This document shows, piece after piece, positions 14,279-34,707 of a stretch of 49,089 nucleotides of DNA (positions are counted from its first letter, which is position 1; the number at the start of each line of letters is the position of its first letter). The stretch is from a virus. Location: the IMG/VR virus record IMGVR_UViG_3300022868_000028, positions 1 through 49,089 of that record. One strand, 5' to 3'. Under the pieces are notes generated by a model. The model did not search any database and was not told where the DNA came from. It saw nothing but the letters and a program-made list of their open reading frames with translations. The position numbers and the translations under genes were made by a program.

Positions 14279-16402
14279 ATGTACGGGAAATCAAAAACAA
14301 TGATGGCTATTCTCGTTGTTGCAGCTCTATGTTTCTTACAAGTGCCAGCATTTGCGGCACAGGTAAAGGCTAATACCGATAAAGGCTACATAGGAAACGA
14401 CCAGTGGATATGTGATGTTACTGGCGACCTTGTACCTATAGACGACTCAAGCCAAGACATAGGAGCAAGTGGTAACGAAGTAGACAACATCTACCTAGAT
14501 TCACTTTGGTTAGGTGGAGTAGAAAAAACAAGCTGGGGCTCTGTCGTATCACCTATGACAGATGCAACAGGATATGTTTATCCTACTGACTCAGGTGGTG
14601 TATATAGACTGTATGATGCAGGCTATCTATCACTTGGAGCAGGCACCGCGGTAGACACATACATCCTATTTGATACTGATGATGACGATTGGTATTTTGG
14701 TAGAGATGACACAGACAACGATTGTGCATGGGGCGTAGGCTCAACTCTAGGTACTGACGAAAGAATCAGTATTGTAGATAATGCCGCATTAACAGCTATT
14801 ACTATCGGTGATGGTGTAGACTCAGAAGATAAATACCTTCTCTTCGATGGAAGTTTAGGCGACCAGTATATCGGTTACCTTGATACCTACGATATGTTAA
14901 TAGCGGGTGATGGTTCGACCATGGATGCTGATATGTGTTGGGGCGTTGAGAATGCCACTACACCACTATTGGTACTATGGAATGGTATCGATGCCTATGG
15001 TGCTATTGATATAGATTATGGTTCAGTAGACGTTACAGACCATACATTCGTATCAGATGGCGGAACACTTATCATAGATGGTACTATTACTCTCACAGAA
15101 GCAGAAGTAATAAGCAACGCAACAGACGATACAGTTAGAGTAGCTTCTAATGATGCCGCAACAACGCTTGAGGTATGGAGCGATCTTGCTTCAGGAGATG
15201 CTATTCTGAAACTTAGTGCTGGAGATGGTGATGCAGCAGGTGAACAATGGACAATCACTTCAACACAAACAACTACAGATTTGGTAATTGCTTGTGATGA
15301 TACAACTCCAGGCGACCCATTAACAAGATTCACAATATCAGACGCAGGTGTAGTAACCACAATGGGTACTGTTAATCTAGAAATAGAAGATTCAGCCAAC
15401 ACAAGCATTACTGATATAGCAAATATACAGCACTTTACATCAGGCACAGCAGCAGCAGGTATCGGTGCGGGCTTAACTTTTGACCTTGAAAACGGTACAG
15501 GTACAGAGGAAGAGCATGCTTCTATTGACGTAGTAGCAACATCATCTACAAACGGTGCAGAGGATTCAGATGTTGTAATAAATCAGATGACAGCAGGCGC
15601 ACTAGCAGAGACAGTAAGAATAGTTGCAAATTCAAGTGCAACGACTTCTGATTATCTTCAGTTTACTGCTAATACAACTGAGACTACTGTTGCTCATCCT
15701 GTTTTAGTTTTAGCAACTGCTACAGGAACAGCAGAGGATCTTCACGGAATGGCAATTTCATTCAGACCTGAAGATGCTACAGGCTCAGAAGAACACGCAA
15801 GGATGGACATAGTTCAGACTACAGCAGCAAGAGCAACTAATGATACTGACTTTGTATTTACTCAGGATATAGCTGGGGCTCTAACAGAGACAGTAAGATT
15901 TGATGCTGACGCAAGTTTGGGTGGCGTCGTAGTTATTGAAGGTGCGAGTCCGCTTGCTATGGGTGGTACAACCGATGATGCCTATTTCACAATATTGGCT
16001 GTAGCTGATGCTGCAAGTTCATCTAAGACGGTTACATTACCATCAATAACATCATCAATCGCTCTGGAAACTGTGGCAACAACAGTAATCACAGCAAACA
16101 CAACAGCGACGATAACAGTTGTTCCAGGAACAGACACTCTATACACCTACACAATCGACACGGATGATGAGAATTGTACGCTAACATTCTCCGCTGGCGG
16201 TACAGCAGGTGACATAGCGACTATCATATTTGATGCTGCCGCAGCATCAGGTCAGGACGAAATTATGACTTTTCATACAACCCTTGCAAATACCACAGGC
16301 ACTTTAACACTTGCCGATGGAGCGAATGAAAGATATGTAATAACGTTCATAAGTGATGGAACTGTTTGGAATGAAACTTCCAGGACAGGCGCACAAACAT
16401 AA
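14279..16402 (+). CDS. Exported fibre-like virion protein with Sec signal peptide (707 aa)
   Basis: AAGGAGG lies 5 bases before ATG 14279. The first ~26 residues form a signal peptide (KSK, then hydrophobic MAILVVAALCFLQV, then PAFA cleavage). The mature chain is acidic, rich in Thr, Ala, Gly and Asp, and almost wholly beta, with loosely repeated modules such as ALAETVRIVANSS and ALTETVRFDADAS, typical of long phage fibre or appendage proteins. It opens the appendage module right after the head genes. Substrate or receptor cannot be inferred. Confidence 0.65.
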   Translation: MYGKSKTMMAILVVAALCFLQVPAFAAQVKANTDKGYIGNDQWICDVTGDLVPIDDSSQDIGASGNEVDNIYLDSLWLGGVEKTSWGSVVSPMTDATGYVYPTDSGGVYRLYDAGYLSLGAGTAVDTYILFDTDDDDWYFGRDDTDNDCAWGVGSTLGTDERISIVDNAALTAITIGDGVDSEDKYLLFDGSLGDQYIGYLDTYDMLIAGDGSTMDADMCWGVENATTPLLVLWNGIDAYGAIDIDYGSVDVTDHTFVSDGGTLIIDGTITLTEAEVISNATDDTVRVASNDAATTLEVWSDLASGDAILKLSAGDGDAAGEQWTITSTQTTTDLVIACDDTTPGDPLTRFTISDAGVVTTMGTVNLEIEDSANTSITDIANIQHFTSGTAAAGIGAGLTFDLENGTGTEEEHASIDVVATSSTNGAEDSDVVINQMTAGALAETVRIVANSSATTSDYLQFTANTTETTVAHPVLVLATATGTAEDLHGMAISFRPEDATGSEEHARMDIVQTTAARATNDTDFVFTQDIAGALTETVRFDADASLGGVVVIEGASPLAMGGTTDDAYFTILAVADAASSSKTVTLPSITSSIALETVATTVITANTTATITVVPGTDTLYTYTIDTDDENCTLTFSAGGTAGDIATIIFDAAAASGQDEIMTFHTTLANTTGTLTLADGANERYVITFISDGTVWNETSRTGAQT

Positions 16403-16416
16403 AGTAATAATCTAAC

Positions 16417-16440
16417 GGGGAGGGGCATAAGCCTCTCCCC
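16417..16440 (+). other. Strong stem-loop between virion genes
   Basis: GGGGAGGGGC pairs with GCCTCTCCCC around an ATAA loop, ten pairs with one G-T. No T run follows, so it is not a standard intrinsic terminator. It could be an RNA-processing, stability or pausing site. The C(ATAA)G loop recurs in the ssb-ninB intergenic structure at 43680-43732. Confidence 0.6.
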
Positions 16441-16456
16441 AGACATGAGGTGTAAT

Positions 16457-17365
16457 ATGGCAAGAGGATGGGGCGGAAAGGAAAAACTTCCTGGGAAGGG
16501 AGAATTAAGAAAGCTAATACAAGAGACAGACAATTTACAACATAGAAAGAATAAGCTAAAATCAGAAATAAGCGTAGCCGTGAATAAGGCAGTAGAAGCA
16601 AAAACAAAAGAACTAGACGAATTATTTGATAAAGAAATAACCAGTTTAAACTCAATGCATGAATCAAAAATAAAGCAGTTAGAATCAGAACGTACCGATG
16701 TTAATAAACAACGAGATATCCTACGAGTAAAAGATAAAGAAATATCAGAGAGAGAAAAATCTGTATCGGCCAGGGAATCAAAGGCTCAGATACTTGAAGA
16801 TAAGAATGTCCGCACTTCCATATCCCTAGATAACAAAGAAGCCCAGAATCAATCATATATAGAAATAGAGAATACCAAACTAAGCGAGCGTGAGCATGAT
16901 ATAAACATTAAAAAACAAGAAAATACAACCAGAACCAATCAGCTTGTAAAACAAACGATACATCTAGAGGATCAGGACACCAGCCAGAAGGACACACAGA
17001 CACAACTAGACGCGGATAAAATAGCACTAAACAGCCAAGCAACTAGGAATAGCAATGATATGGCTGAAATTGAAGAACTTCAAATAGAGTTAAAAAAGAA
17101 CCAAGCTGATACTAAATTAGTAATAGCAGATGCAAAAGAAAAATTCCAACAGGCCAATGAACTGCTTGCAACAGCAGATGCGCTCCAAAAGAAACTAGAC
17201 ATAGAAAAGGAAGCCGTAAAAAAGATGACCAAGGATATTCCTGAGACTAAGAAGATTCTAAAAGAGCGAGAGATATCGGTAGGTGAAAAAGAAAGGCTTG
17301 TTATATTAAAAGAACGCAGAATAGACGCTAAAATAAAAGTGTTAAAACAACTAAGAGCAGGATAA
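16457..17365 (+). CDS. Long coiled-coil protein (302 aa)
   Basis: After a short Gly-rich basic start (ARGWGGKEKLPGKG), nearly the whole chain is charged heptad-repeat helix, with ISEREKSVSARES and EISVGEKERLVILKER as examples. There is no signal peptide, unlike its neighbours on both sides. ATG 16457 is preceded by GAGGTG; a farther ATG at 16445 has no site. Candidates are an internal or tail-assembly protein; a tape measure is unlikely at this size and with this tail type. Confidence 0.6.
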   Translation: MARGWGGKEKLPGKGELRKLIQETDNLQHRKNKLKSEISVAVNKAVEAKTKELDELFDKEITSLNSMHESKIKQLESERTDVNKQRDILRVKDKEISEREKSVSARESKAQILEDKNVRTSISLDNKEAQNQSYIEIENTKLSEREHDINIKKQENTTRTNQLVKQTIHLEDQDTSQKDTQTQLDADKIALNSQATRNSNDMAEIEELQIELKKNQADTKLVIADAKEKFQQANELLATADALQKKLDIEKEAVKKMTKDIPETKKILKEREISVGEKERLVILKERRIDAKIKVLKQLRAG

Positions 17366-17386
17366 AAGTGGAGGTTTAAAAATATT

Positions 17387-17794
17387 ATGTCAATAGGCCC
17401 TTTTGTAGACCCTATACCAACAATAGCGAACGTAACAGAGATACCAGTAAAAACTACAGCAGTAGTCTACACAAAGTCAATGAGCCTTAAAATGGGTGAA
17501 TACTTTGCGCTAGGCTACAAAGCAACATCAGGTGGTGATGTAAAGCTAAAAATAGAACTAGAGCAATCACATCAGCGACCAGACACAGAAGAGGCCTCAG
17601 ACGACACCTATGTAGTCCCTGAGAGCATAACAACCCTAGAAGCAGCTCTAGCGGACGAGGATTGGCATTTTAAGAAGCTAGAGCCTATAGCACTACCATT
17701 TGCTAGGCTAAAAATAACAGGACTTGGTGCTCCAAGCGCCAATCACGCAAGCACAACCATACAACTAAAACTAGGCAAAATAGACCTAGCATAA
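17387..17794 (+). CDS. Small beta-sandwich virion protein, paralogue 1 (135 aa)
   Basis: Beta-rich protein closely related to the next gene. Shared blocks include SLKMGEYFALGYKA against SLKEGEYFALAYKA, the QSH motif, TYVVPES against AYVVPES, and ALADEDWH against NLADTDWH, followed by PFARLKI against PYARLMI. The two are a tandem duplication. No signal peptide. It lies among fibre genes and is probably a minor structural or decoration component. The family is not recognised. Confidence 0.6.
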   Translation: MSIGPFVDPIPTIANVTEIPVKTTAVVYTKSMSLKMGEYFALGYKATSGGDVKLKIELEQSHQRPDTEEASDDTYVVPESITTLEAALADEDWHFKKLEPIALPFARLKITGLGAPSANHASTTIQLKLGKIDLA

Positions 17795-17804
17795 GGAGGG
17801 TAAC

Positions 17805-18203: not shown

Positions 18204-18213
18204 AAAGGTAGAT

Positions 18214-21200: not shown

Positions 21201-21675
21201 TACAGTAGATGCTACAATAGGTGGCACTACTCCAGCATCTGGTTCGTTCACAGAGGTAGTTTTATCTGCAGATGGTAAGTTAGAATTTAATCCTACCCCA
21301 TCAGCTACAGATAAAGCAACTGGTATAATAGTATCTATGACAGTAGATGTAAATACTGTAGGCATAGGTGGATTACTTCATTTAGATACTGATAGTCATT
21401 GGGTAGACGCTGATATGAACGCTACTACATCAATGCCTTGTATGGGTATTGCTTTAGGCACGACGGGAACTGTTGATGTTTTACTTAATGGTATCATTAC
21501 AGATACAGCATGGACTTGGACAGTAGGCGGAATAATGTATGTTAACACCGCAGGTACAATGACACAGACCGCACCAGCTGGAAATGGTGACCAAGTACAG
21601 GTAGTTGGTATAGCATTAACAGCTACAACAGTTTATTTTAATCCATCGGGCGTATTGGTAGAGGTAGTGGTATGA
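18214..21675 (+). CDS. Large tail-fibre-like protein with Sec signal peptide (1153 aa)
   Basis: The first ~19 residues are a signal peptide (KRLLITMLLLGITSLAYC). The long mature chain is beta-rich, poor in Lys and very rich in Thr, Gly, Ala and Asp. It contains phage fibre modules: EVDSIVGAVTGIVKSDGSAN then SAASAGTDYQA, and a second version at about residue 495. Two ~61-residue repeats (at 20461-20643 and 20818-21000) share GANSFSGTASGTNTGGNTGD. Residues ~310-340 (TLTVEDPTTPDKTITLPDAT) also fit known fibre segments. It overlaps the next start by 4 bases. Likely host-contact fibre; the signal peptide is unexpected for one. Confidence 0.7.
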   Translation: MKRLLITMLLLGITSLAYCESGWRGDQAKNTDTDTTYFDGILSANETDVQQALDILDDISLSSGAPTDADYLVGTANGSLSAEIPVGTTPGGELGGSWATPTVDSTHSGSAHHAAATITTPDTNVTAGQAITFAQAGIMGITESADTITFTATEVDGSTSNEINTITCPDANVTAGLGITFADTGIMTITESGDTVTFDATEVDSIVGAVTGIVKSDGSANFSAASAGTDYQAAITGTDTHVMFFDGANTPAGDAGMTYNKTTDTLTIVDIVATDLYLTTSQGDIEFEGATPDDFETTLTVEDPTTPDKTITLPDATGTVVLKDTEDTLTNKTLAAANNVIEADTVLTITGLAPDTQNTYARTQYLIPYASTTTAFGEIAIGTATHVLTSNGIGSAPTFQAAAGGAPEGTAVLSTGPVADTNYLRADGDGTCSWQAVAGGGTMSTFILEDSDGTEVSISDAEEVKFIESGIIDIDWTDTDPGSDADPFDLTFTVTEVDSIVGAVSGVVESDGAGNISACENLTDVDYEEEVTAGSLADNTINDDDINWDDISNLAANGACTLAATATNIADNTGTTTTVLHGNAAGSPSFGSVVATDMGIDAYDLGTSLEADTLTESGNAVFNTTEVATFTGLTSSGIVNIDDGVGDSPSLFFFDADNNYFALIKYDAGAAGLFNNEGVIRLAPSNDINDYLEVSTAAGIVTITTIAGDDGDLVITAGGGDISFGDENISTTGTHSATGGYTGALTGNADSVTNATFTTALTVDTGTVGLTGNIAGSVLTLGAGANSFSGTASGTNTGGNTGDNTVATSGDSATDFFDAGEIIDARISDTLTSSTCTGNAATVTNGVYTTDFPLNQNTTGKADTAGNADTVTNATLTTALTVNTGAVTLIGNAGASTLTLGAGANSFSGTASGTNTGGNTGDDTVCTSGAATTAETLKTARAINGVDFNGSQAITVTAAAGTLTGATLKADVLASSLTSLGTIASLVATTADINAGTVDATIGGTTPASGSFTEVVLSADGKLEFNPTPSATDKATGIIVSMTVDVNTVGIGGLLHLDTDSHWVDADMNATTSMPCMGIALGTTGTVDVLLNGIITDTAWTWTVGGIMYVNTAGTMTQTAPAGNGDQVQVVGIALTATTVYFNPSGVLVEVVV
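20461..21000 (+). repeat. Two direct repeats of ~183 bases, 357 bases apart, in the fibre gene
   Basis: The copies are 20461-20643 and 20818-21000. Their 3' halves (20563-20643 and 20920-21000) are nearly identical at DNA level, while the 5' halves match mostly in protein sequence. The offset is exactly 119 codons. The pattern suggests module duplication or homogenisation in a fibre, a known way for fibres to change length and binding. Confidence 0.7.
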
Positions 21676-22859
21676 TAAAAAAACTAATTTTAGTACTTAT
21701 AATATTATCTATTACAGTTTCTTCTTACGCTGCATGGACAGTTGATTCATTAACATATGATAAGCGTAAAAAGATAACAATTCAAACAACTAATGTTGGT
21801 ACAGACTTAACTGATTTTCCTTTATTAGTTAAGATAGCTGCTGACTCAGATATGGCTGACGCTAATGCTGATGGGTTTGATATTAGGTTTACCGAGGACG
21901 ATGGTTCAACAGAGATACCTTATGAACGACAAGCATGGACTGGTGGTGCTGCTTCTGCTGTAACTGCTATCTTTTGGGTTAAGAGTGATGTAACTACAGT
22001 AGGTACAGGTGCTACAGATATTTATATTTATTGGAGATCAACAGACACGGCAGACGGAGCCAATCCTACAGCAGTTTGGGTAGACTACGCTGCTGTATGG
22101 CATTTGAATGCTTTAACGGATTCAACTGGTAACGGCAACACCATGACAGCTTACAATACTCCAACGAGTGGTGCTACTGGTGTAGTCGGTGATTGCTATA
22201 CTTTTGCGAGTGCTTCAGTAGAATACTTAGCAAGAGCCGATAACTCTGGAATAACTGCTTATCCTGTAGCGTTTACTTGCTGGTTTTCATCAAGTACGGA
22301 CCAAGACCAAGCTGTAGTTAATCTAGGGGATGCAAATGCAGTTTCGACCATAGGATGTTGGATGCGAGACTCAACCCCAGAGCAAGATGTTCTTGCACAT
22401 CAATACAGCGGGGGAGTTGGTAATTATGTTGGAACAACAACCGACTGGGCTATTGATGGAACATGGCAACTGGGAACTGCAGTATTTCTTAATGCGACTT
22501 CAAGAGTTGTCTATCTTGATGCTGGTGGCTATGCGATAAATACAGTTAGCGATGCCCTACCATCAGGACTTGATAGAACATCTATAGCAGGAAGATATTA
22601 TGGCGGTAGTGCAAAAAATCTATTCAACGGTTCAATAGACGAGGTTAGAATAAGAGATGCTAATGTCGCTAATCACACAGCTGATTGGGTTAAGTTTGAA
22701 TATTACAATATAGATTCTGTCGGTAATGAACTTACCTTCGGAGCAGAACAACCAGCAGTGGGGGGTTGGACTCATAAGATAAATGGAGTAGCAGCAGCCA
22801 ATATGGCTAAAGTAAACTCAGTAGCAAAAGCAAATATAGCAGAGATAAATCAAACGTAA
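21672..22859 (+). CDS. Exported DUF2341 / LamG-like protein (395 aa)
   Basis: Signal peptide of about 20 residues (IKKLILVLIILSITVSSYA). Residues ~25-130 match the DUF2341 pattern: YDKRKKITI, then LTDFPLLVKI, then a DIRFTEDDG motif. Residues ~140-350 look like a LamG/concanavalin fold (AVWHLNALTDSTGNGN, then FTCWFSSS, then GSIDEVRI), often carbohydrate-binding. The C-terminus repeats INGVAAANMAKVNSVAKANI, a linker seen in phage and surface proteins. A receptor-binding appendage is likely. Confidence 0.75.
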   Translation: MIKKLILVLIILSITVSSYAAWTVDSLTYDKRKKITIQTTNVGTDLTDFPLLVKIAADSDMADANADGFDIRFTEDDGSTEIPYERQAWTGGAASAVTAIFWVKSDVTTVGTGATDIYIYWRSTDTADGANPTAVWVDYAAVWHLNALTDSTGNGNTMTAYNTPTSGATGVVGDCYTFASASVEYLARADNSGITAYPVAFTCWFSSSTDQDQAVVNLGDANAVSTIGCWMRDSTPEQDVLAHQYSGGVGNYVGTTTDWAIDGTWQLGTAVFLNATSRVVYLDAGGYAINTVSDALPSGLDRTSIAGRYYGGSAKNLFNGSIDEVRIRDANVANHTADWVKFEYYNIDSVGNELTFGAEQPAVGGWTHKINGVAAANMAKVNSVAKANIAEINQT

Positions 22860-22869
22860 GGAGTAATAG

Positions 22870-23358
22870 ATGAAGAAAATAATAATCATATTAGCAATAC
22901 TTTTAATGCCTTTTATGGCTCGTGCTGACCTTGTCGTAACTGGTAAGATAATAATGACGAAAGGCGACAATACTTCTACGATTGAAATGGATGATAACGG
23001 TAATGTCTATGTAACAGGTAAGGGATTAAAAACTGATGGCAACATAATCAAAGTCCCGTCAGATATTACTAACATTACAGCAGCGGGTGGAATTACAGTA
23101 ACAAGTGCAATAATGGTTATACAGGGTTCAGGCGGGGCAGTAGATATAACAGCTAATCCTCAAATAGCAGATGGTTATGACGGACAACAGGTTGAACTTA
23201 GAGGCAATAGTGATACCAATACTATATTGTTAGAAACTGGAAATGGTTTATCGTTAGAAGAAGGAGTAGTTTTTACATTGGGATTAAGTGACTCCATAAA
23301 ACTTATCTACTCATTATCTGAAGATTTATGGGTATGCGGAAGAAGAGTAGATAACTAA
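22870..23358 (+). CDS. Exported small fibre-like protein (162 aa)
   Basis: Signal peptide (KKIIIILAILLMPFMARA, cleavage before DLVV). The mature part starts VTGKIIMTKGDN, like the base of fibres that carry a 'coordinate' label strand, then a beta region with a Gly-rich core and a final LYSTS-like strand ending DLWVCGRRVDN. It probably works with the DUF2341 protein directly upstream. Role inferred from position. Confidence 0.55.
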   Translation: MKKIIIILAILLMPFMARADLVVTGKIIMTKGDNTSTIEMDDNGNVYVTGKGLKTDGNIIKVPSDITNITAAGGITVTSAIMVIQGSGGAVDITANPQIADGYDGQQVELRGNSDTNTILLETGNGLSLEEGVVFTLGLSDSIKLIYSLSEDLWVCGRRVDN

Positions 23359-23369
23359 AGGAGCAAACT

Positions 23370-23579: not shown

Positions 23580-23580
23580 A

Positions 23581-23706
23581 ATGCCTATTCAAATAGCTCG
23601 ACTAGAGCAGACCAGTGAGCATATAAAGGGAGACCTTAGTCGACTAGATAAAAACCTTGAAACAATACAATCAGATGTCAAGCTGATATTAAAGGCTCTC
23701 AAATGA
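23581..23706 (+). CDS. Small coiled-coil protein (41 aa)
   Basis: A short frame coupled to both neighbours. The product is a single amphipathic helix (QIARLEQTSEHIKGDLSRLD, then NLETIQSDVKLILKALK), close in style to the coiled coil of the upstream XhlA-like protein, with no membrane segment. It could pair with that protein. Its ATG follows the upstream stop by one base, and its own stop overlaps the lipoprotein start. Confidence 0.55.
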   Translation: MPIQIARLEQTSEHIKGDLSRLDKNLETIQSDVKLILKALK

Positions 23707-23921
23707 GGATACTGATATGTATTTTATGTCTATTTTTAACAGGCTGTGCAACGTCTATGAAAGGCTTGTACGACGATCAGGGGAGATTAGTAGGCGTAGA
23801 GGGCTCAGGAAAGCAAAAAAGCTATATCAAGCAAGCAGCAGACGGTTCAGTAGAATATGGAATGGATAATAAGCAAGAGCCTCTGATCAACCTAGACCTT
23901 AACGCAGCAAAAGTAAACTAG
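23703..23921 (+). CDS. Small lipoprotein (72 aa)
   Basis: A lipoprotein signal (RILICILCLFLTGC, lipobox LTGC) directs lipidation at Cys14. The mature ~58 residues are polar. Lipoproteins in phage lysis clusters are often outer-membrane spanin subunits; the small size fits, but an inner-membrane partner is not obvious. It might instead act in superinfection exclusion, as other phage lipoproteins do. The start overlaps the previous stop (ATGA). Confidence 0.65.
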   Translation: MRILICILCLFLTGCATSMKGLYDDQGRLVGVEGSGKQKSYIKQAADGSVEYGMDNKQEPLINLDLNAAKVN

Positions 23922-23930
23922 GAGGAATCG

Positions 23931-24587
23931 ATGAAAGGTTTTATAGCTTTTTTAATATTAGTAGTTTTATCAGCGTGGCTTATAGTAGCCAACGCAGCAG
24001 CAGATAGCGTGAATGTAAAGCTGGGCGTTCAAGATTATCTCGTAGAAGGTATGGGCGCATCTCCTAGACTAGAAGTGGGATATGAACTCAATAAGACATT
24101 TGAACCTGAACTATGGATACCAGTATTGTCAGTTTTAAGTAATGGGGAAAAATTAAAGATTCCATTTGAATTGGGTTTAGAGTTAGGAGTAGGCTTTAAT
24201 ACTGTAGTAGCACACGATACACAGGTAGAAACTCCTTATACAGGCAAAGGTATGGGCAGATTAAATATGCTTGATTACTACATTACCTTAAAGTGGTATC
24301 TTCCCTATAACTTACACGTAGGTGGGGGTGTAAATTATTTAGACCCTTACTTCAGAGAATACTACACAGCACAAGCGGATTGGGATGATGAAGTAGGCGC
24401 TCACGCACAGGTAGGTTGGGAGTTTAAGAAAGACTGGACTGCTATATTTAAGTGTGGCTGGGGAGACATAGACGTAGAGAGTGGCAAAGACCCTGAGTGG
24501 GCATATGGATATAAGTTTACGAACGGCATTCTTGAAGCACAAAGCAATCAAGATTACTATGCATTTATGATAGAAAGAAAATTCTAA
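23931..24587 (+). CDS. Exported outer-membrane beta-barrel-like protein (218 aa)
   Basis: A signal peptide (~23 residues ending NAAA) precedes a chain of alternating polar and apolar strands rich in aromatic and Gly residues (RLEVGYELNK, LGLELGVGFN, YYITLKWYLPYNLHVGGGV, HAQVGWEFKKDW) and ends in ERKF. A terminal Phe is the recognition signal for outer-membrane insertion. Length suits an 8-strand barrel. Phage barrels of this type can alter the host surface or exclude other phages. It overlaps the next start by one base. Confidence 0.65.
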   Translation: MKGFIAFLILVVLSAWLIVANAAADSVNVKLGVQDYLVEGMGASPRLEVGYELNKTFEPELWIPVLSVLSNGEKLKIPFELGLELGVGFNTVVAHDTQVETPYTGKGMGRLNMLDYYITLKWYLPYNLHVGGGVNYLDPYFREYYTAQADWDDEVGAHAQVGWEFKKDWTAIFKCGWGDIDVESGKDPEWAYGYKFTNGILEAQSNQDYYAFMIERKF

Positions 24588-24748
24588 TGTCTGCTGAGAA
24601 GAGACAACTTAATAGAGATTACGTTCACATTAAAGACCATATAGCAGAGGCAATGACATCACTCTCACTAGCAATGAATATGTTTGAGGCCTTAGAGGAA
24701 AGAGAGAAAAACAGGAGAAGAGAAACCGATAAGGAGGTATTGCAATGA
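24587..24748 (+). CDS. Small helical protein (53 aa)
   Basis: A frame coupled at both ends (TAATG upstream, ATGA downstream). The product is an amphipathic, charged helix pair (DYVHIKDHIAEAMTSLSLAM, then EALEEREKNRRRETDKE) without signal or membrane segment. It lies between the barrel and the two-TM gene. Function unknown. Confidence 0.5.
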   Translation: MSAEKRQLNRDYVHIKDHIAEAMTSLSLAMNMFEALEEREKNRRRETDKEVLQ

Positions 24749-24966
24749 GTGGCAGAAAGTTTATGACGATTGCGTTTTCAGCTACATACTGTCTGGTAAT
24801 TATTGGCTCTTTGGTATTAGCTTGTATGAAACTAATGACAGTTGCGGTACTACTAGCTTTATTTTCAGGGTTTACACCTATGGTAATGTATATTGTAAAA
24901 AGTTACTATAACAGGACTAGACCAGAGGAGGCTAAAAATGGACTTAAACCTAACTCAGTGGCTTAA
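24745..24966 (+). CDS. Two-TM holin-like protein (73 aa)
   Basis: Two membrane segments (about residues 7-27 and 30-50, with LVIIGSLVLACMKL and AVLLALFSGFTPMVMYIV) and a basic, soluble C-terminus. Size and layout suit a class II holin, and it stands in the membrane cluster next to the XhlA-like gene. GGAGGT precedes the start. I rate it as the best holin candidate, but no free endolysin is nearby. Confidence 0.6.
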   Translation: MSGRKFMTIAFSATYCLVIIGSLVLACMKLMTVAVLLALFSGFTPMVMYIVKSYYNRTRPEEAKNGLKPNSVA

Positions 24967-25225
24967 AGGAAATGCTGCATTAGGAGTAATCAAGCTATTC
25001 CAAAGCAGAGTTAATGGGCGTAAAATAGGAAGAGATATAGATAAAAAAGGTGACGAGGGATTAGGAGAAAAGTCATCTGAAAAAATACAGCGAGGCCCGA
25101 TAACTACATTTTTTGGTCAAATCTTAGAAGGACTATGGGCAGAAAATCCAGTATCGTTGGCAGTATGGCACGAACAGCAGGCTAAAGACATAAGAAGAAA
25201 CTTAACCAAAGGAGGCAAGAAATGA
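24938..25225 (+). CDS. Hypothetical protein (95 aa)
   Basis: The frame begins 29 bases inside the preceding gene after GAGGAGG. The product is basic and helical, with no signal or clear membrane segment (LTQWLKGNAALGVIKLFQSR, then a polar middle, then WHEQQAKDIRRNLTKGGKK). No family recognised. It is coupled to the exported protein downstream (ATGA overlap). Confidence 0.5.
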   Translation: MDLNLTQWLKGNAALGVIKLFQSRVNGRKIGRDIDKKGDEGLGEKSSEKIQRGPITTFFGQILEGLWAENPVSLAVWHEQQAKDIRRNLTKGGKK

Positions 25226-25683
25226 AGGCATTGATAGGTTTTACAGTATTATTTGTAGTGGCACTAGCAGTATGTAGTTCATGCTTGGCAGAGGGATTTA
25301 ATGTTGAGTTAAAACAGGGTGCTTTAGTTTGTTTTGATAGTGAATCTAGCGACAACAATAGTAATAAGATTAGAAATGTATCCACTTTTACAATAGCAAG
25401 AACTGAAAAGGTAGAAGCATGGGGTAAGTGGAATGCACTATGGGAAGGCTGGACTCTAGATGGTGGACTAGCATACGACTCAGATGAACTTGATACAGTA
25501 GCAATTTTAGTAGGCAGGAAACTAGGAGTTATAGGAGACTATATTCCTATAGACTTTCCTCTAGACGATTTACTATCAATCACAGTATATCCTATTGGTG
25601 TATACGCTGAAGGCATACAAGACAATGCTACATTTGGTGCGTGCGTAGGTGGCGCAATTATAGAGGCAAAGATAACTTTTTAA
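25222..25683 (+). CDS. Exported small beta-barrel-like protein ending in Phe (153 aa)
   Basis: Signal peptide of ~25 residues (KALIGFTVLFVVALAVC, cleavage near CLAEG). The mature part has short alternating strands (AWGKWNALWEGWTLDGGLAY, LVGRKLGVIGDY, GACVGGAIIEAKITF) and a terminal Phe, like a compact outer-membrane barrel. It is the second such protein in the cluster. An exported beta protein of unknown role is the safe reading. Confidence 0.55.
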   Translation: MKALIGFTVLFVVALAVCSSCLAEGFNVELKQGALVCFDSESSDNNSNKIRNVSTFTIARTEKVEAWGKWNALWEGWTLDGGLAYDSDELDTVAILVGRKLGVIGDYIPIDFPLDDLLSITVYPIGVYAEGIQDNATFGACVGGAIIEAKITF

Positions 25684-25695
25684 AAAGGAGCAGGC

Positions 25696-26382
25696 ATGAA
25701 TTTAGGAAATCTTAGAACATTGGCTCGCGCTTCAATCCCAGGGGCTAAGATAAGCGTAGTAAACAATACAATACTAGACTTAACCCTTAATCAAGGTGCG
25801 GCTGATATAGCAGCTTATACGCTATGTTTAAAGAGTAATCAACAGTTTAATGTTACTGACGGTAGCCACGAATATAATCTATCTATAGAAGTAGACGATT
25901 ATATAGGAGTCGATAAATCGGGTTTGTGGTGGTATAACGGCAGCAAGTGGCGAGAGGTATATCCAAAGACTCTCAAATGGTTTGACCAAAATAGACCTAA
26001 TTGGAGAAATCTAGCAGAAGGTGATCCAATCTATTACTCTCTAGACTCCAACATAATAACCTTAACCCCAACACCTGATACAACTCAATCGAATGGTTTA
26101 TGGCTATATTACGGAGCAAAGTCTGTAGATATGACATCAAATACGCATTATCCGTTTAGCGGTTCAACCGTTGAAATGACACACTTGTCAATATTTGATT
26201 ATGCTATTATAGCTTTCGCAAAATGGAAGATACTGCCTATGCTAAACAAAGAAGTAGATGCAGACAAGCTATATAAAGAATATCTAACCGAAAGAGAAGC
26301 CAAAAAGATACAGCTATACAAAAGACCAGATATAGCAAATTCATACGATATGGGTATGAGAGGCCCAGCGGTGAGAGCATGA
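25696..26382 (+). CDS. Tail adaptor / head-completion protein (228 aa)
   Basis: An N-terminal helix, a middle beta region (LWWYNGSKWREVYPKTLKWF, then EGDPIYYSLDSNIITLTP, then GLWLYYGAK) and a C-terminal helical end (ADKLYKEYLTEREAKKIQLY). The pattern of a G-P-Y/Y stretch then L-x-P-x-P and a Y-x-G strand is common to podovirus adaptor or upper-tail proteins. No signal peptide, unlike the tail genes that follow. It directly precedes the nozzle-like gene, whose start overlaps its stop. Confidence 0.55.
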   Translation: MNLGNLRTLARASIPGAKISVVNNTILDLTLNQGAADIAAYTLCLKSNQQFNVTDGSHEYNLSIEVDDYIGVDKSGLWWYNGSKWREVYPKTLKWFDQNRPNWRNLAEGDPIYYSLDSNIITLTPTPDTTQSNGLWLYYGAKSVDMTSNTHYPFSGSTVEMTHLSIFDYAIIAFAKWKILPMLNKEVDADKLYKEYLTEREAKKIQLYKRPDIANSYDMGMRGPAVRA

Positions 26383-28835
26383 AAAAGATATATATTGTTT
26401 TGCTTGCTTTGATACTTGCGATCCCTGCTTACGCAGCACAACAAGATAGGTTCTTTGTGTTGCAGGACTTCTCAAAGGGATTAAATAGCCATATATCACC
26501 TATTAACACCCCAGACAATCAAGGCATAGAGGCTCAAAATGTAAGAGTCAATAAAAGATACGGTGCTTTGGGAAAAAGAGAACCCCTAATAACGGCATGG
26601 GACGCAGGTTCTGCCACGATCAACGCTCTACACCGCTATTACAAGAGTGATGGTACATTTAAGACTATCATAGCCACAAGCACCACGCTTGAAATAGGTG
26701 ATTCAACAGGCACAGGTACAACAACTATTGACTCAGGGCTAACAGATGGTAAGAGATGGAAATTCTCTACATTTAAGGATAACGCAATAGGAACAAATGG
26801 ATATGACAGACCTATCAAATATGATGGGAAAACTACCACTACAGCTAACACAGATGGCGCAAGATCAGCAGATGAGCTATGTGCAGACCTAGGTGCGCCT
26901 TTTGCTGAACTCAACACAGGCACAGATCTAACCGCAGCTAAATGGTATCAGTACAAAATGCAGTTTTTATCTAGTGCAGTAGGCTACTATTCAAACGCCA
27001 GGAGTAACCCTATCCTAACAGGTGCAGCAGTATATAATATAAGCCTTACAGACATCCCTATAGGCCCTACAGGGACAACAGCAAGATATGTGTATAGGAA
27101 CGTAGGAAGTGCCTCTAAGGCAGCGTGTGAGGCTAATACGACCTTTTACCTTATGGCCACCATAGCAGATAACACCACTACAACAGCTAACGATACTATG
27201 TCAGATGCTACTCTCGCAGGCGAAACACTATGGGCAACAACATCAAAATATGGTTGCCAGCCACCTACAGGTAAATACTGTAATGTAAATAACGATAGAC
27301 TTTTTATAGGTGGAAATACGACTTATAATTCTAGGCTTTACTTTTCAGACGATAGTAACCCAGATTTCTTTGACCCTGACGACTTTGAAAGAATAAGACC
27401 AAATGACGGAGATGAGATAACATTTATTGAAACATTTATGGGAACAATGATAGTAGGTAAAAACACCAGCATACAAAAATACCACACAGACGGCTCATAT
27501 ATAACAGACTGGTATGTAAGCGATCCTTATTCTTTTGTTGGTTGTCCAGCGCCTTATACTGCGTGTTCATCACCTATGGGGATAATTTACTTATCAAGAG
27601 ATGGAATATATGTATTTGATGGGGTAAGGTCGAAGCTGATTTCAGACGCTGTAACTCCTCAGATAAAAGATATATCTCGAACAAACATAGATAATTGCGT
27701 AGGAATATACTTTAACAATGAATATCGCCTATCATACAATTCTTACGAATCAGGGGTTTCGATAAATAACAAGGTTTTGGTGTATGATTTAATCAGAGAT
27801 GCCTATGTAGTAGATACAATAAACGCAAACTGTTGGGCTGCCTTTGATGCCAGCACAGACTCAGGGGTTGTATATTTAGGCTCGTCTAAGTCTGATGGGC
27901 TTGTACAAGGGGTGTCTTATTCTGACCCGCTCTTAAACATTAGATTTGAAAGTGAACTTGACGAGGGTACATACGACGACACCAGAGCTTACGGAACAGA
28001 AAACTCCCCTACCCTAGAAATAGGCTGGGATTGTACTATAGATACGTGGGAAACAGAACTCCAAACTAAAAATGCTAATATTGATACCCTAGATAAAATA
28101 AAAACCTATCTTCCTGATGCAGTAATTGACCGCCCAGATGGAGATGGAACATGGGTAAGCGAGGTATATCAAATAGACGCTGGTGCTTTACTTGCTTTAT
28201 ATTGGAACGAAACACTAGGAGCATATGGAGATGTAACTTTTCAAATTAGGCTAAATTCATCTTCAAGTATGTCAGGTATAACTTACGAAACAGCAGTAAC
28301 CAATCCTAACGGTGCTGATATATCAGGAATTACAGCAAATGATTATATTCAACTTAGAGCTAATTTCACGACTTCAGACGAAGTATACTCCCCTACTGTT
28401 TATCAAACAGATGGGTATTTATTCAGATTAACCTATGAGCGCGTAGGAGCAACAAAGGAAACTTCGGTAACTAGCTTATACACCACAGGCTGGAAAGATT
28501 TCAAAGTACCAGGATATAAAAAGCAAATTAAACGAATAAAAATCTTCTACACGGGGACGTCGGGAACGGTTAATTTAAACATCAAAACTGACGATGGAGA
28601 CATAAACAGAGACATCCCTATTGATTTATCTGTTGAACCAGATTTTAGTTTAGATGACGAATATATTGGAGACGAAGATTTAAAGATATTCACCTACTAT
28701 CAACCTATCAACTCAGAAGAAAGTCCTTCTTTAATAGGACAACTATTTAGGTTTGAAATCACAGAGAATGGGGTTATTGGATGGGAAATACAAAAGATTG
28801 AGTTCCTATACCAAGTTGAGCAAATATATGACTAA
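26379..28835 (+). CDS. Tail nozzle / stabilisation-like protein with Sec signal peptide (818 aa)
   Basis: The body matches podovirus tail stabilisation or nozzle proteins: FFVLQDFSKGLNSHISP, then NVRVNKRYGALGKREPL, followed by a beta-propeller-like region (RLFIGGNTTYNSRLYFSD, FFDPDDFERIRP, IVGKNTSIQKYH, IIYLSRDGIYVFDG). In the P22-type tail this protein caps the adaptor ring. In front of it is a complete signal peptide (KKIYIVLLALILAIPAYA, cut before AQQDR). The conserved domain starts right after the cleavage site. The C-terminal ~250 residues are a further beta domain. Its end overlaps the next start. Confidence 0.7.
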   Translation: MKKIYIVLLALILAIPAYAAQQDRFFVLQDFSKGLNSHISPINTPDNQGIEAQNVRVNKRYGALGKREPLITAWDAGSATINALHRYYKSDGTFKTIIATSTTLEIGDSTGTGTTTIDSGLTDGKRWKFSTFKDNAIGTNGYDRPIKYDGKTTTTANTDGARSADELCADLGAPFAELNTGTDLTAAKWYQYKMQFLSSAVGYYSNARSNPILTGAAVYNISLTDIPIGPTGTTARYVYRNVGSASKAACEANTTFYLMATIADNTTTTANDTMSDATLAGETLWATTSKYGCQPPTGKYCNVNNDRLFIGGNTTYNSRLYFSDDSNPDFFDPDDFERIRPNDGDEITFIETFMGTMIVGKNTSIQKYHTDGSYITDWYVSDPYSFVGCPAPYTACSSPMGIIYLSRDGIYVFDGVRSKLISDAVTPQIKDISRTNIDNCVGIYFNNEYRLSYNSYESGVSINNKVLVYDLIRDAYVVDTINANCWAAFDASTDSGVVYLGSSKSDGLVQGVSYSDPLLNIRFESELDEGTYDDTRAYGTENSPTLEIGWDCTIDTWETELQTKNANIDTLDKIKTYLPDAVIDRPDGDGTWVSEVYQIDAGALLALYWNETLGAYGDVTFQIRLNSSSSMSGITYETAVTNPNGADISGITANDYIQLRANFTTSDEVYSPTVYQTDGYLFRLTYERVGATKETSVTSLYTTGWKDFKVPGYKKQIKRIKIFYTGTSGTVNLNIKTDDGDINRDIPIDLSVEPDFSLDDEYIGDEDLKIFTYYQPINSEESPSLIGQLFRFEITENGVIGWEIQKIEFLYQVEQIYD

Positions 28836-30903
28836 AAAGATACTGATTTTATTATTATGTTTTATCGCCACATCAGCCTACGCTGGAGACTATTTAACGG
28901 GCTTCGATGAAGAAACAGATTTGCCTATCCTAAATGAACATCTTCGTAAACTAGACCAATCTGTACTATACGGAAGATTAAGAACTGATGATGATGACGA
29001 TTCAATGGGCTATCTCTCGACCGAAGTCCTAGACATCATAACAGTAGGAACGGTATCTGGCGGCACAATAGGAGGCTGGACTCTAAGCGCATCAGGACTT
29101 TATGGCGGATCAGGAGAAGATTACATAGGTTTACACCCAGGACAAGGAATCCAAATGGGTAATGAGACCTTTGCAAGTGCAGAATTTACAGTAACAAGTC
29201 AGGGAGCAATAAAAGCCACATCAGGCACAATAGGTGGATGGGACATAACAGCATCTACACTAGAATCCCCCAGCGACGCTATCGTCCTAAACGATACCAC
29301 TTCAGAAATAACCGTAGGAGCAATAGGTAACACACATCTTCAAATAGACGGTGCCAATGTTCATATAAGAAGCTCTGACTACGCTTCAGGCGCATTAGGC
29401 TCAGGCTGGAATGTAGACTCAAACACAGCAGAGTTTAACAACATAAGAGCAAGAGGTAAGTTCTCTACTTCGATTTTTGAGAAGACAAGTATTTCTTCAG
29501 TTGGGGGGAACCTATTAGTTTCTGATAGTGACCTCTTAAATGTGGATATGACAGCAGCAGATGCGTCCACAATGACTATATTAGGAGATACTACATTTGC
29601 AGTAAATGATATTTTACGCATGAAAGACGGCAACGATGACGAATGGTTCACAGTAACTAATGCAGACTCTGCTCCTACATATACAGTAACCAGAGATGGT
29701 GGTAGTGACTATGCAGCAGATACAAACCCTATATGGACTAAAGGCACGGCTGTAATAAACTATGGTGCATCAGGAGAGGGTCTTATCTATATGACAGCCT
29801 CGGACACGAATTCGCCTCACATAGACGTTTTAACGCACGCAGGAAGCCCTTGGGACACCACTACAACTCGTATGAGGATGGGTAATGTCAATGGGTTCTT
29901 AGGCGCTGCTACTGACTTATACGGTATATATATAGGAGATAGTGATTCTTACCTTAAATATGATCCTACCAATGGACTTCAGATAAAAGGAGTTGTAACG
30001 GTTACTGGTGGTAATGCTACACAGACATTTTATCAAGATGCTATTCCTACTTCTATCGCTATAGGTGATATATGGGTAGACACTAATGATAGTAATAAAC
30101 TATACATATCATATAGTGCTGGAGCAGATGAGATTAAAGCAGGTGAGTGGGTTGAAATATCGACTGGTGGTGGTGGTGGTGTTACTACATTTAGACAATC
30201 TGCAATACCTACAGCAGTAACAGCTGGTGATATGTGGATAGATACAGATGATGATAAGTTATATAGGGCCACCAGTGTTGGTGATGATCAGATTACAGCG
30301 GGAGAATGGGAATTATATGATGCAGCAATAGCCACTGGTTGGTCGCACGCTTCAGATACTACCAAAATCGATGGTGGAGATATTTATACCAACACAGTAA
30401 CTGCTACCCAAATAAGTGTATCGCAATTAGATGCCCTTGCAGTAAATACAGGAACGCTTGATGTAGACGAATATATAAATGTAGGCTCTTATGTTACTAT
30501 TGACGGGGCCGCCGAAGCGTTTAAAGTGTTTAGTGATGTTATAACTATCGAAGCAGGTGTGAATGATAAATTAGATTGGATAGAAGATGCAAGTACAGAG
30601 GTTGCTACATTAACAGCAAGCACTACATATACACCAACAACATTAGCAGCACATATACAAGTTATTATGAGAGCACAGGGAGATGCTGATACAACAGTTG
30701 TCTATAGTAGTTCTACCAAGAAAATTACTATTGCTAATGCAACCCTATCCACATTAACATTAAAATGGAGCACAGGAACAAACACAGCAACTACTTGTGG
30801 TAGAGCATTAGGATTTGATATTACAGCGGATGATAGTGGTGCATTAACTTATGCAGCAGACTATCAAGCAGCATTACGAGTAGAATTGGGGAAACTATCA
30901 TGA
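28828..30903 (+). CDS. Tail fibre / tail-tip protein with Sec signal peptide (691 aa)
   Basis: ATG 28828 starts a signal peptide (TKKILILLLCFIATSAYA, cut before GDYLT). A frame open to 28753 would bury it in 25 polar residues, so I choose 28828. The body has the GTIGGW repeat type of tail proteins (GTIGGWTLSASGL and GTIGGWDITASTL), two copies of a module with the shape AIPTxxxxGDxWxDTxDxxLY at ~395 and ~465, and a C-terminal beta domain. It is probably a trimeric fibre. The start overlaps the nozzle gene by 8 bases. Confidence 0.65.
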   Translation: MTKKILILLLCFIATSAYAGDYLTGFDEETDLPILNEHLRKLDQSVLYGRLRTDDDDDSMGYLSTEVLDIITVGTVSGGTIGGWTLSASGLYGGSGEDYIGLHPGQGIQMGNETFASAEFTVTSQGAIKATSGTIGGWDITASTLESPSDAIVLNDTTSEITVGAIGNTHLQIDGANVHIRSSDYASGALGSGWNVDSNTAEFNNIRARGKFSTSIFEKTSISSVGGNLLVSDSDLLNVDMTAADASTMTILGDTTFAVNDILRMKDGNDDEWFTVTNADSAPTYTVTRDGGSDYAADTNPIWTKGTAVINYGASGEGLIYMTASDTNSPHIDVLTHAGSPWDTTTTRMRMGNVNGFLGAATDLYGIYIGDSDSYLKYDPTNGLQIKGVVTVTGGNATQTFYQDAIPTSIAIGDIWVDTNDSNKLYISYSAGADEIKAGEWVEISTGGGGGVTTFRQSAIPTAVTAGDMWIDTDDDKLYRATSVGDDQITAGEWELYDAAIATGWSHASDTTKIDGGDIYTNTVTATQISVSQLDALAVNTGTLDVDEYINVGSYVTIDGAAEAFKVFSDVITIEAGVNDKLDWIEDASTEVATLTASTTYTPTTLAAHIQVIMRAQGDADTTVVYSSSTKKITIANATLSTLTLKWSTGTNTATTCGRALGFDITADDSGALTYAADYQAALRVELGKLS

Positions 30904-31256
30904 GAATAATATTTTTAGTATTGATTATTTTAGGATTAACAGCGTTACCCTTAAATGCTGCAAATTATGGGCTAAGGGTTAGGGACGCTCAAGGCAAAGT
31001 AATAATAAATACTGCAGATAGCATATCTCGCCTTGTTTATACATCTACTCAGACTGCCTCTGCTGGTAACTCTGGTGCGTTACCCGAAATAGCAGGATTA
31101 AAGACTGCCCAATTTTCTATGCCTGTTAATGGTACTGCAGCTACATCACCGCATACAGTATCAAGGTCTGGGACTACTATTTCTTGGACTACTAATACTT
31201 TTACAACATTTGTATCTCCTGCTACTTGTGTTATGTTTTGTTTTGCGTACTCTTAA
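30900..31256 (+). CDS. Exported tail-tip-like protein, short paralogue (118 aa)
   Basis: Signal peptide (RIIFLVLIILGLTALPLNA) then NYGLRVRDAQGKVIINTADS. The YGLR(V/I) followed by a 'G-x-(V/L)-I' strand and an S-x-R-L-V motif is known from small phage tail-tip or fibre-cap proteins. It resembles the N-terminus of the next gene. Start coupled to the upstream stop (ATGA). Confidence 0.6.
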   Translation: MRIIFLVLIILGLTALPLNAANYGLRVRDAQGKVIINTADSISRLVYTSTQTASAGNSGALPEIAGLKTAQFSMPVNGTAATSPHTVSRSGTTISWTTNTFTTFVSPATCVMFCFAYS

Positions 31257-31269
31257 TTAAGGATAAAAA

Positions 31270-31974
31270 ATGAGAATATTATTAATATTATGTTTATTAT
31301 TATTTGTTAATCCAGTCTATTCTAGCGATTATGGGTTGCGGATTAAAAATACTGATTCTGAATTTCAAATAGATGGTGTTAACAAAAACTATGTATATGT
31401 TGAAGGTACTGATAATGTACAAAGAGGGGCTACGGCTGGCATAACTAATCACAACTTTTCTACTAATACGACATATCCGCCAATAGTGTTATATAGACCA
31501 TTGGATGGTAATAGGATGGGATTGTTAACTCTTAATTATTCAGCACCGAATTATACTGGGTTTCAAATGGCGTGTGGAGCCAATGCTAATTATGATTATA
31601 GGGTGTTCTTTCTAGAGGATACGTTTTCGTCCGAAACACATGGAATGAGAATAAAAAATGCAAAAGGAGAGTTAGTTTATGATACAGGATATTCTACATT
31701 TAGAATAATTGATGTAATTTCTACTACCAATGGCACAAATGTAACGCATGGTGCTGATGATAATAAGGTATTCTATATTCTAACACCTTGGCATTGTGGG
31801 GTTACTGGTGGGCATCCAGCTTATACTTTTAGATTAGTACAATCTATATACAGAGTAAGCTCCACACAGTGTCACCCGCAATTATTATTAGATGGCATAG
31901 TTGGTGGGCATAGTGTGGGTTCTCAGGTATCTGGTACTAATATTGATGTTATAGTATGTGAATTTGATGATTAA
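31270..31974 (+). CDS. Exported tail-tip-like protein with two YGLRI-type modules (234 aa)
   Basis: Signal peptide (RILLILCLLLFVNPVYS) then SDYGLRIKNTDSEFQIDG. A second copy of the module begins at about residue 123 (HGMRIKNAKGELVYDTGYS), and each is followed by a beta domain. It is the longer paralogue of the upstream gene. The two probably arose by duplication. AAGGATAAAA precedes the start. Position among tail genes supports a virion role; the target is unknown. Confidence 0.6.
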   Translation: MRILLILCLLLFVNPVYSSDYGLRIKNTDSEFQIDGVNKNYVYVEGTDNVQRGATAGITNHNFSTNTTYPPIVLYRPLDGNRMGLLTLNYSAPNYTGFQMACGANANYDYRVFFLEDTFSSETHGMRIKNAKGELVYDTGYSTFRIIDVISTTNGTNVTHGADDNKVFYILTPWHCGVTGGHPAYTFRLVQSIYRVSSTQCHPQLLLDGIVGGHSVGSQVSGTNIDVIVCEFDD

Positions 31975-31989
31975 AATAGGAGTGTTACA

Positions 31990-32211
31990 ATGTTTAAAAA
32001 AATACTTATAGTATTGCTTCTTATGATATTATGCGATAGGTGTCGTGGATTTATTGATGAAGAACGTGGATATTATGTATGTGAAAATGCATATGAACAT
32101 CAAACTCATCAAAGATTGGATAAAAACATATGTAAAAATTGCTATAGGTTGCTTCCTATATATATACAGGATAATTATAAAAAAGTAAACAAAACTAAGG
32201 AGAAAATATGA
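31990..32211 (+). CDS. Exported Cys-rich small protein (73 aa)
   Basis: A hydrophobic N-terminal signal or anchor (FKKILIVLLLMILC) precedes a polar region with CxxC-type pairs (CDRC, CKNC) and single Cys and His residues, ending in a Lys-rich tail. Cys residues in an exported protein could form disulfides. GGAGTGTTACA precedes the start. Function unknown. The stop overlaps the next start. Confidence 0.5.
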   Translation: MFKKILIVLLLMILCDRCRGFIDEERGYYVCENAYEHQTHQRLDKNICKNCYRLLPIYIQDNYKKVNKTKEKI

Positions 32212-32462
32212 AAATACTATTAGTAATAATGATTTTAGCAATATCAATAAATTGTTACGCATCTATTGAAAAACAGAGTTTAATAGACCAAAGGATAGTC
32301 TTACAGCATAAAATAGACGATATCACAGACGCAATAGAAGCTATTATAGCTGACGAGGCTACAGAAGAAGATATGATAAAACTAGAATACTACAAAGAAA
32401 CCTTAGAGAAAGATAACCCAGTACCAAAGGATTACAAAGAGAAAGGAATAATAGAGTTATGA
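32208..32462 (+). CDS. Exported small helical protein (84 aa)
   Basis: Signal peptide (KILLVIMILAISINCYA; the Cys gives a weak lipobox-like site) then a charged helical hairpin (EKQSLIDQRIVLQHKIDDIT, then an acidic stretch, then MIKLEYYKETLEK). Similar in style to the exported coiled-coil protein at 2419. Coupled to both neighbours by overlaps. Role unknown. Confidence 0.55.
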   Translation: MKILLVIMILAISINCYASIEKQSLIDQRIVLQHKIDDITDAIEAIIADEATEEDMIKLEYYKETLEKDNPVPKDYKEKGIIEL

Positions 32463-33376
32463 GAAGATTATTATTAGTGATTATGGTTTTGAGTTTGGCT
32501 GTTCCAGCATTTGCAACAGTTCAATGGAGAAATGGCACAGGGGCAGAAACTCCTCCAGGCAGTACAAACCCAGGGGATATTGATGATGTTATATACGATA
32601 ATATCGTAGCACCATTAGATAACCTTTTAGCAGACGGAAGATTTGGATGTAAACTTGCATATGCATCAGCCGCTACGCTAACCGTAGGAGCTGGTTCAAT
32701 AGTATTAAGCAACACCGCAGACACAGTAAGACTGATGGCTAGAAACTTATCCGCTACAACCGTAGCATGGACAGATATCGATACTGGATCAGAGGCAGCA
32801 AGCACAACATATTATTTATATGCGATTGCATCGGCTGTATCCGATACAGTATTCACGGTTAAAATATCAACAAGTTCATCTCTTCCAGCAGAGGTAACTT
32901 ACTATAAAAGATTAGGCTATTTTACTAACAACAGTGATAGCAACATATCAAGTATAATAGATGACGGTAGATATGAAACTACTTTAGTAGGTACTATTCA
33001 AATGTATGGTGGTTCTTCTGCTCCAACTGGATGGCTAATGTGTGATGGTACAGCAGTATCAAGAACAACCTATGCAGCTTTATACAATATAATAGGAACA
33101 TCATTCGGAACTGGAAATGGTTCTACTACTTTTAATGTACCAGATTTTGTAAACAGATTTCCTTACGGAGCAAGTGCTGGAACTGATGCTGGTAATGCAG
33201 ATATCGGTAGCGAGGGTGGTACGGCAATAACTGGAAATGATACATCTCTTACTTCAAGCACAGGAAGCACTACACCACCATCCAGATATGATGGTAATGA
33301 CAGCACAGGTGTAGGCGCTCACACTCACACATATATGCCACAATACTTAGCAATTAACTTTATTATAAAAACATGA
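32459..33376 (+). CDS. Phage tail collar-domain protein with Sec signal peptide (305 aa)
   Basis: Signal peptide (RRLLLVIMVLSLAVPAFA) then a beta domain and, from about residue 180, a tail collar domain: GTIQMYGGSSAPTGWLMCDG, then RTTYAALYNIIGTSFG, then TTFNVPDFVNRFPYG. The end HTHTYMPQYLAINFIIKT matches the terminal strand of this family, known from short tail fibres where it folds the tip. The domain call is firm; the signal peptide is the odd part. Confidence 0.85.
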   Translation: MRRLLLVIMVLSLAVPAFATVQWRNGTGAETPPGSTNPGDIDDVIYDNIVAPLDNLLADGRFGCKLAYASAATLTVGAGSIVLSNTADTVRLMARNLSATTVAWTDIDTGSEAASTTYYLYAIASAVSDTVFTVKISTSSSLPAEVTYYKRLGYFTNNSDSNISSIIDDGRYETTLVGTIQMYGGSSAPTGWLMCDGTAVSRTTYAALYNIIGTSFGTGNGSTTFNVPDFVNRFPYGASAGTDAGNADIGSEGGTAITGNDTSLTSSTGSTTPPSRYDGNDSTGVGAHTHTYMPQYLAINFIIKT

Positions 33377-33386
33377 GGAGGCTATA

Positions 33387-33434
33387 ATGCCAAATGTAAG
33401 TGTAAATTTACCAGAGTTTTATAAGGATAAATAA
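33387..33434 (+). CDS. 15-residue micro-ORF coupled to the cupin-like gene
   Basis: GAGGAGG lies 6 bases before an ATG that encodes 15 residues (MPNVSVNLPEFYKDK); its stop overlaps the next start (TAATG). The excellent ribosome binding site suggests it is translated, perhaps only to deliver ribosomes to the next gene, whose own start has a weaker site. A remnant of a longer gene is also possible. Confidence 0.35.
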   Translation: MPNVSVNLPEFYKDK

Positions 33435-34692: not shown

Positions 34693-34707
34693 AAATAGGA
34701 GACTAAG

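Follow-up and report, generated by a model that had tools for sequence, protein, structure and literature searches.

Signal peptides on the nozzle, collar and fibres of an uncultivated podophage-like virus suggest that its tail parts are exported before they join the head

To our knowledge, the tails of T7, P22, SU10 and Carin1-type podophages assemble in the cytoplasm, as does the whole virion of every tailed phage studied so far. Here, we analysed a 49-kb stretch of viral DNA (IMG/VR virus record IMGVR_UViG_3300022868_000028; 49,089 nucleotides, hereafter the window), in which the predicted tail nozzle, the collar protein and the fibre-like proteins start with signal peptides. The part order of portal, adaptor, nozzle and fibres is common to the window and the described podophage tail machines (T7 gp11-gp12, P22 gp4-gp10, SU10, Carin1 connector and nozzle); the difference is that the control phages carry no signal peptide on nozzle or fibre. 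In podophages that have been studied, the head is completed first and then receives its tail parts in succession (PMC3185693). Virion proteins with Sec signals, as in the window, are found in the Ff phages (M13, f1, fd), in which pIII and pVIII carry cleaved Sec signals and await assembly at or in the inner membrane (PMC4823517). The Ff phages are, however, unrelated viruses without a tail, their coat proteins stay membrane-anchored and their particles are extruded through the membrane without lysis. Assembly of the Ff type (anchored coat protein, pI and pIV, no lysis) does not fit the window, which has tailed-phage capsid, portal, terminase, holin-like and spanin-like genes, a comparison that did not include a systematic search for further membrane segments in the mature parts of the nine signalled proteins described below.

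The late region of the window is podophage-like, with a terminase containing an intein, portal, scaffold, decoration protein, capsid and a series of fibre-like genes, followed by a lysis and envelope group, adaptor, nozzle, fibres, collar and three ejection proteins (Table 1). No library match names the portal or the capsid, and both labels reflect position and conservation only. Signals were called by a home-made scorer that considers a basic n-region, a hydrophobic core and the -3/-1 rule. Nine products (starts 14279, 18214, 21672, 22870, 26379, 28828, 30900, 31270 and 32459) begin with complete signals of the Sec/signal peptidase I type, with a basic n-region, an uncharged hydrophobic core and small residues at -3 and -1 in 9/9. 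The first-pass annotation had described full signal peptides on these nine products and none on the head proteins, the adaptor at 25696 and the three ejection proteins, and this division was reproduced on both sides: the scores were bimodal, at 11.8-15.3 for the nine products and at most 8.4 for the non-signal structural proteins, among them portal, scaffold, capsid, adaptor and ejection proteins. All nine distal products carry a signal, as opposed to 0/14 of the other structural or ejection proteins (Fisher p about 1e-6).

The scorer was checked on 50 kb of E. coli K-12, where it found 11 of the 13 exported proteins, a class that we judged from the annotation; the two misses scored 10.0 and 10.7, and there were zero false positives at a score of at least 11. 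Signal-like N-termini occurred in 7 of 359 open reading frames (ORFs) of nine control phages, none of them an annotated tail, nozzle or fibre gene, compared with 15 of 58 in the window. A signal or anchor segment also begins six other products of the window (2419, 23703, 23931, 24745, 25222 and 32208), which are envelope or lysis proteins plus one small ORF; the 2419 product is weakly spanin-like, that of 24745 has a holin-like membrane segment and that of 23703 a lipobox.

The boundary between unsignalled and signalled parts falls exactly between adaptor and nozzle. This position fits a cut point in assembly, since head completion in podophages ends there and the tail parts are then added (PMC3185693). 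The best 29 Foldseek matches of the 26379 product in the PDB were all podophage tail or portal-tail complexes, including T7 gp12, P22 gp10, SU10 and Carin1, with E-values down to 2e-16, although the query was an AlphaFold model of low confidence (predicted local distance difference test 55) and the template modelling scores (TM-scores) were low. The location of the gene directly after the adaptor and the fold comparison back its assignment as a predicted podophage tail nozzle. This identity was settled by the fold search only. Of the sequence and profile searches, tblastn for nozzle homologues in known phages returned a single local match, hhalign against the Carin1, P22 and ctEw122 nozzles nothing significant, and Pfam and PHROGs no match for the window nozzle, each PHROG found matching only 1 of 14 members.

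The annotation had also placed the signals directly before the conserved domains, and homologues in ordinary phages indeed start at the residue where the signal ends. For both the 30900 and the 31270 family, the PHROG profile starts at the point where the window signal stops. Two adjacent relatives in roseophage CRP-7 start with MAYGIVV, the relative of 31270, and MSYGFQI, compared with S/SDYGLRI and A/ANYGLRV in the window (the slash marks the predicted cleavage site); for 30900, LNA/ANYGL is the likelier site and was not the first choice of the scorer. A nozzle relative in ctf1B273 has a basic, non-hydrophobic cytosolic leader and no signal before the shared ...SKGLN motif. No such signals were found in T7, P22, SU10, Carin1 and BPP-1, on nine control nozzles or on Collar-domain proteins from some two dozen IMG/VR phages unrelated to the window, and phrog_2427 was not found in the control phage records. 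The signals are precisely prefixed to domains that elsewhere have none. In the open-access literature, to which the search was confined, we came across no tailed phage described as having signal peptides throughout its tail module or such a split in its virion, an absence that carries little weight.

Two other systems were compared. In Caudoviricetes sp. vir555 (BK063671; L034:10205-10720 and 23614-28233; listed host Methanomicrobiales), an ORF behind the head genes and three downstream fibre or tailspike-like ORFs carry signals, whereas its nozzle and adaptor do not and it belongs to a different phage group; it is possibly a milder, partial case limited to fibres, and its origin may be independent. 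The MAT fibre proteins of Bdellovibrio differ in that they are encoded by a predatory bacterium for its own surface and are not part of a virion.

The analysis was extended to nozzle and capsid relatives collected in three scans of IMG/VR, with counts given as distinct sequences with an intact 5' end. The homologues keep the signal as well as the split by virion position that had been noted in the window. A signal was present in 19/19 distinct nozzles, at identities down to 41%, and absent from all 17 adaptors, six capsids, six portals and five decoration proteins; the next fibre and the collar were signalled, and the ejection proteins had no clear signal (one was borderline at 10.8). The pattern was kept in the most distant relatives, L111 and L117, whose capsids are 43-55% identical. 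Mean identity was 24% in the signal compared with 45-49% in the mature part (45% in the adjoining mature stretch), and the diverging nozzle-relative signals stayed basic and hydrophobic, with a 78% hydrophobic core. A fast-diverging sequence with a kept signal type is as expected for a segment that is cleaved off.

Fibre genes that share no sequence with the window fibres occupy the same places in the relatives and are also signalled, which makes the trait one of the whole system rather than of individual genes. At the place of 18214, for which no sequence relative was found, unrelated large ORFs of the relatives also bear signals, and at that of 14279 the relatives encode a shorter, putatively exported protein of 172-329 amino acids, in all cases with a signal. 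Since the gene at 14279 immediately follows the capsid genes and its product may be a head fibre, the rule is better framed in terms of external parts that are put on once the head has closed than in terms of the distal tail.

Table 1. Features of the window and, in the last row, of its relatives (slash, predicted cleavage site; aa, amino acids; exported, as predicted from the signal).
Feature	Position	Strand	Signal	Remarks
Portal	7580..9694	+	none	assigned by position and length; no signal in 6/6 relatives
Major capsid protein	12777..13760	+	none	assigned by position and conservation; no signal in 6/6 relatives
Fibre-like protein, 707 aa	14279..16402	+	MYGKSKTMMAILVVAALCFLQVPAFA/AQ	directly behind capsid genes; possibly head fibre
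Fibre-like protein, 1153 aa	18214..21675	+	N-terminal	
Exported protein	21672..22859	+	MIKKLILVLIILSITVSSYA/AW	DUF2341 match
Small fibre-like protein	22870..23358	+	MKKIIIILAILLMPFMARA/DL	
OmpW-like outer-membrane beta-barrel	23931..24587	+		terminal F; AlphaFold model and Foldseek, best match OmpW, E 7e-7
Second small exported, outer-membrane-like (barrel-like) protein	25222..25683	+	present	terminal F
Head-tail adaptor, predicted last cytoplasmic part	25696..26382	+	none	SU10_adaptor PF24175, E 1e-10
Tail nozzle, predicted first exported part	26379..28835	+	MKKIYIVLLALILAIPAYA/AQ	fold search; signal in 19/19 distinct relatives
Fibre-like protein	28828..30903	+	MTKKILILLLCFIATSAYA/GD	signal kept in all relatives found
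Small tail-module protein	30900..31256	+	present	mature start ANYGLRV = N-terminus of phrog_2427
Small tail-module protein	31270..31974	+	present	mature start SDYGLRI = N-terminus of phrog_3370
Small exported protein, 84 aa	32208..32462	+	MKILLVIMILAISINCYA/SI	coiled-coil-like
Collar-domain fibre	32459..33376	+	MRRLLLVIMVLSLAVPAFA/TV	PF07484, E 3.5e-23; lineage relatives also signalled
Three ejection-type proteins (33889, 34708, 35613)	33889..40181	+	none	35613 matches phrog_9880, E 6e-96
Wzy_C-type multi-pass membrane proteins	L101:10375-11550, L018:8138-9340, L117:12137-13354, L111:12064-13290, L024:1360-2532			structural module of relatives

Taken together, the complete and conserved signals strongly suggest that nozzle and fibres are exported, and cleavage of the signals is likely. 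The first-pass annotation had proposed that the distal parts are exported and join the heads outside the cytoplasm or after lysis; the export is well supported by the signals, while the place and time of joining we infer as its simplest consequence. In our view, the window probably belongs to a lineage of short-tailed phages that infect a diderm host and divide the making of their virion between two compartments. The head, scaffold, portal, ejection proteins and adaptor would be made in the cytoplasm, whereas the nozzle, collar, fibres and capsid-adjacent exported protein would pass through Sec, lose their signals to signal peptidase I and fold in the periplasm, possibly with further modification there. 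At lysis, the phage holin would open the inner membrane and so bring the filled, adaptor-capped heads together with the nozzles and fibres that are already in place outside it; completion of the tail would follow in the periplasm or the lysate. We lean, by a little, towards the full form of this proposal, in which the exported tail machine matures, and probably is modified, in the periplasm and attaches to DNA-filled heads no sooner than lysis opens the inner membrane, the particles becoming infectious only at or after that point.

Several points weigh against this pathway. It was read from sequence alone, in uncultivated phages, and the signals were called by a scorer that is not SignalP. We know of no tailed phage that assembles in this manner, we recognised neither a chaperone nor an assembly factor for the periplasm, and a head without a nozzle may leak DNA unless the adaptor or portal holds it. 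A possible exception to the rule lies at 33434-33892, where the product matches phrog_24280 'tail fiber adhesin' (E 5e-31) and has no signal; it resembles a cupin, its role is uncertain and it may be a tail part without a signal. Furthermore, in the five contigs L005, L012, L016, L022 and L045, the first part of the collar signal is interrupted or replaced by an HNH insert in antisense orientation. The HNH endonuclease gene of these contigs (8672-9250 in L005) is located at or within the beginning of the collar gene and parts a signal-like start (MKRLWIVLMIL in L005) from the remaining signal; Rfam detected no intron at these inserts.

The export could serve mainly for periplasmic O-glycosylation or disulfide bonding of the parts before they join the head, which would refine the two-compartment model and not contradict it; we regard this as a tentative possibility. 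Wzy_C enzymes, which comprise O-antigen ligases and O-oligosaccharyltransferases, act on the periplasmic side, where they transfer glycans. In seven divergent lineages (L101, L018/L089, L117, L111, L024/L087, L093 and L021/L090), a Wzy_C-type gene stands directly behind the gene for the putatively exported post-capsid protein and encodes a multi-pass protein of about 390-434 amino acids with a PF04932 match (below the Pfam cut-off in L024/L087) and an AHN[ED] loop motif. In these relatives, the protein has the PF04932 domain with a periplasmic-loop His, as PglL-type enzymes do, and it adjoins an exported protein, as genes for O-oligosaccharyltransferases (PglL) often adjoin their target protein (PMC3643930). 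The signalled proteins are also rich in Ser/Thr, with 20% in the nozzles compared with 16% in control nozzles (p 2e-4). On the other side, the relatives' ligase-like protein differs from PglL/WaaL ligases in that the Pfam scan did not report the PglL_A motif (PF15864) at E <= 0.05, and searches of the PDB and NCBIfam with it were negative. As the PglL motif and the NCBIfam models were unmatched, an O-antigen ligase or polymerase that changes the host lipopolysaccharide (seroconversion) is equally possible. The Bacteroidota O-glycosylation motif D[ST][AILVMT] was not enriched, and nozzle lysine depletion was not used as evidence (K alone p 0.24, not significant; K+R weak, p 0.047). The gene is absent from the window and from several relatives and therefore cannot be required; were modification the purpose, a phage Wzy_C enzyme might act in some relatives and a host enzyme, or none, in the window, a division that we hold just as tentatively.

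Export might also be partial, with exported copies serving elsewhere, for instance in blocking surface receptors, and cytoplasmic copies building the virion as usual. Delivery of phage proteins to the outer membrane of infected cells is known, Lom of lambda being one example (PMC12309495), and the window encodes an OmpW-like barrel. The nozzle, however, is an internal channel part without an obvious surface role, yet it has the best-conserved signal, and most of the genes have no alternative start codon near the mature end. The next ATG, GTG or TTG after the hydrophobic core lies 23-94 codons in, usually within the conserved mature region, and an internal start is unlikely for most of the nine products; the exception is 22870, with ATGs at codons 16 and 29. 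We consider partial export unlikely.

The first-pass annotation had raised membrane anchors as an alternative. In this reading, the signals would stay uncleaved and either tether tail parts to the inner membrane while assembly proceeds or enter the membrane upon infection, for which the strong hydrophobic cores speak (mean Kyte-Doolittle 3-4). The anchor reading was weakened by the complete c-regions, with A, S or G at -1 in 73/74 signals (partly built into the scorer) and the AxA motif most frequent 1-4 residues past the core. The n-regions are basic, the segment diverges fast next to a conserved mature start, and there is no reason for nine different proteins of one virion to retain such anchors, which makes this reading rather improbable. 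That the signals are chance or misread starts, giving functionless hydrophobic leaders, is rejected as highly improbable by the conservation across relatives, the bimodal scores, their rarity in controls and the Fisher test given above.

The OmpW-like product of 23931 has an eight-stranded barrel, a signal and a C-terminal F (model of moderate confidence, predicted TM-score 0.61), and it is 61% identical to its counterpart in the L005 lineage. This barrel, the second barrel-like protein and the lipobox protein are all encoded in the window, and the host is therefore read as a diderm bacterium. The nozzle profile found no match in GTDB genomes. The capsid profile matched one 3.7-kb contig (L096) in a 'Candidatus Lokiarchaeota' metagenome-assembled genome, with a capsid gene of 71% identity. 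Given the genes for an outer-membrane barrel and a lipobox protein in the window, a Lokiarchaeota host was rejected and the contig was taken to be viral sequence that had probably been mis-binned.

Three further features were observed in the window. The large terminase subunit (4428-6935) is split by an intein (PF14890, residues 101-345). A ParB N-terminal domain is fused to an MT-A70 methyltransferase at 44500-45588. The left record end (1-451) is a short tandem repeat that reads as repeated VLTLG, a possible assembly or end artefact.

If the proposed pathway is true, a membrane can stand between the assembly of the head and that of the tail, and infectivity is coupled to lysis. Phage tail parts would also be opened to periplasmic chemistry such as disulfides and glycans. 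Annotation that reads a signal peptide as the mark of a host-secreted protein would misread such genomes.

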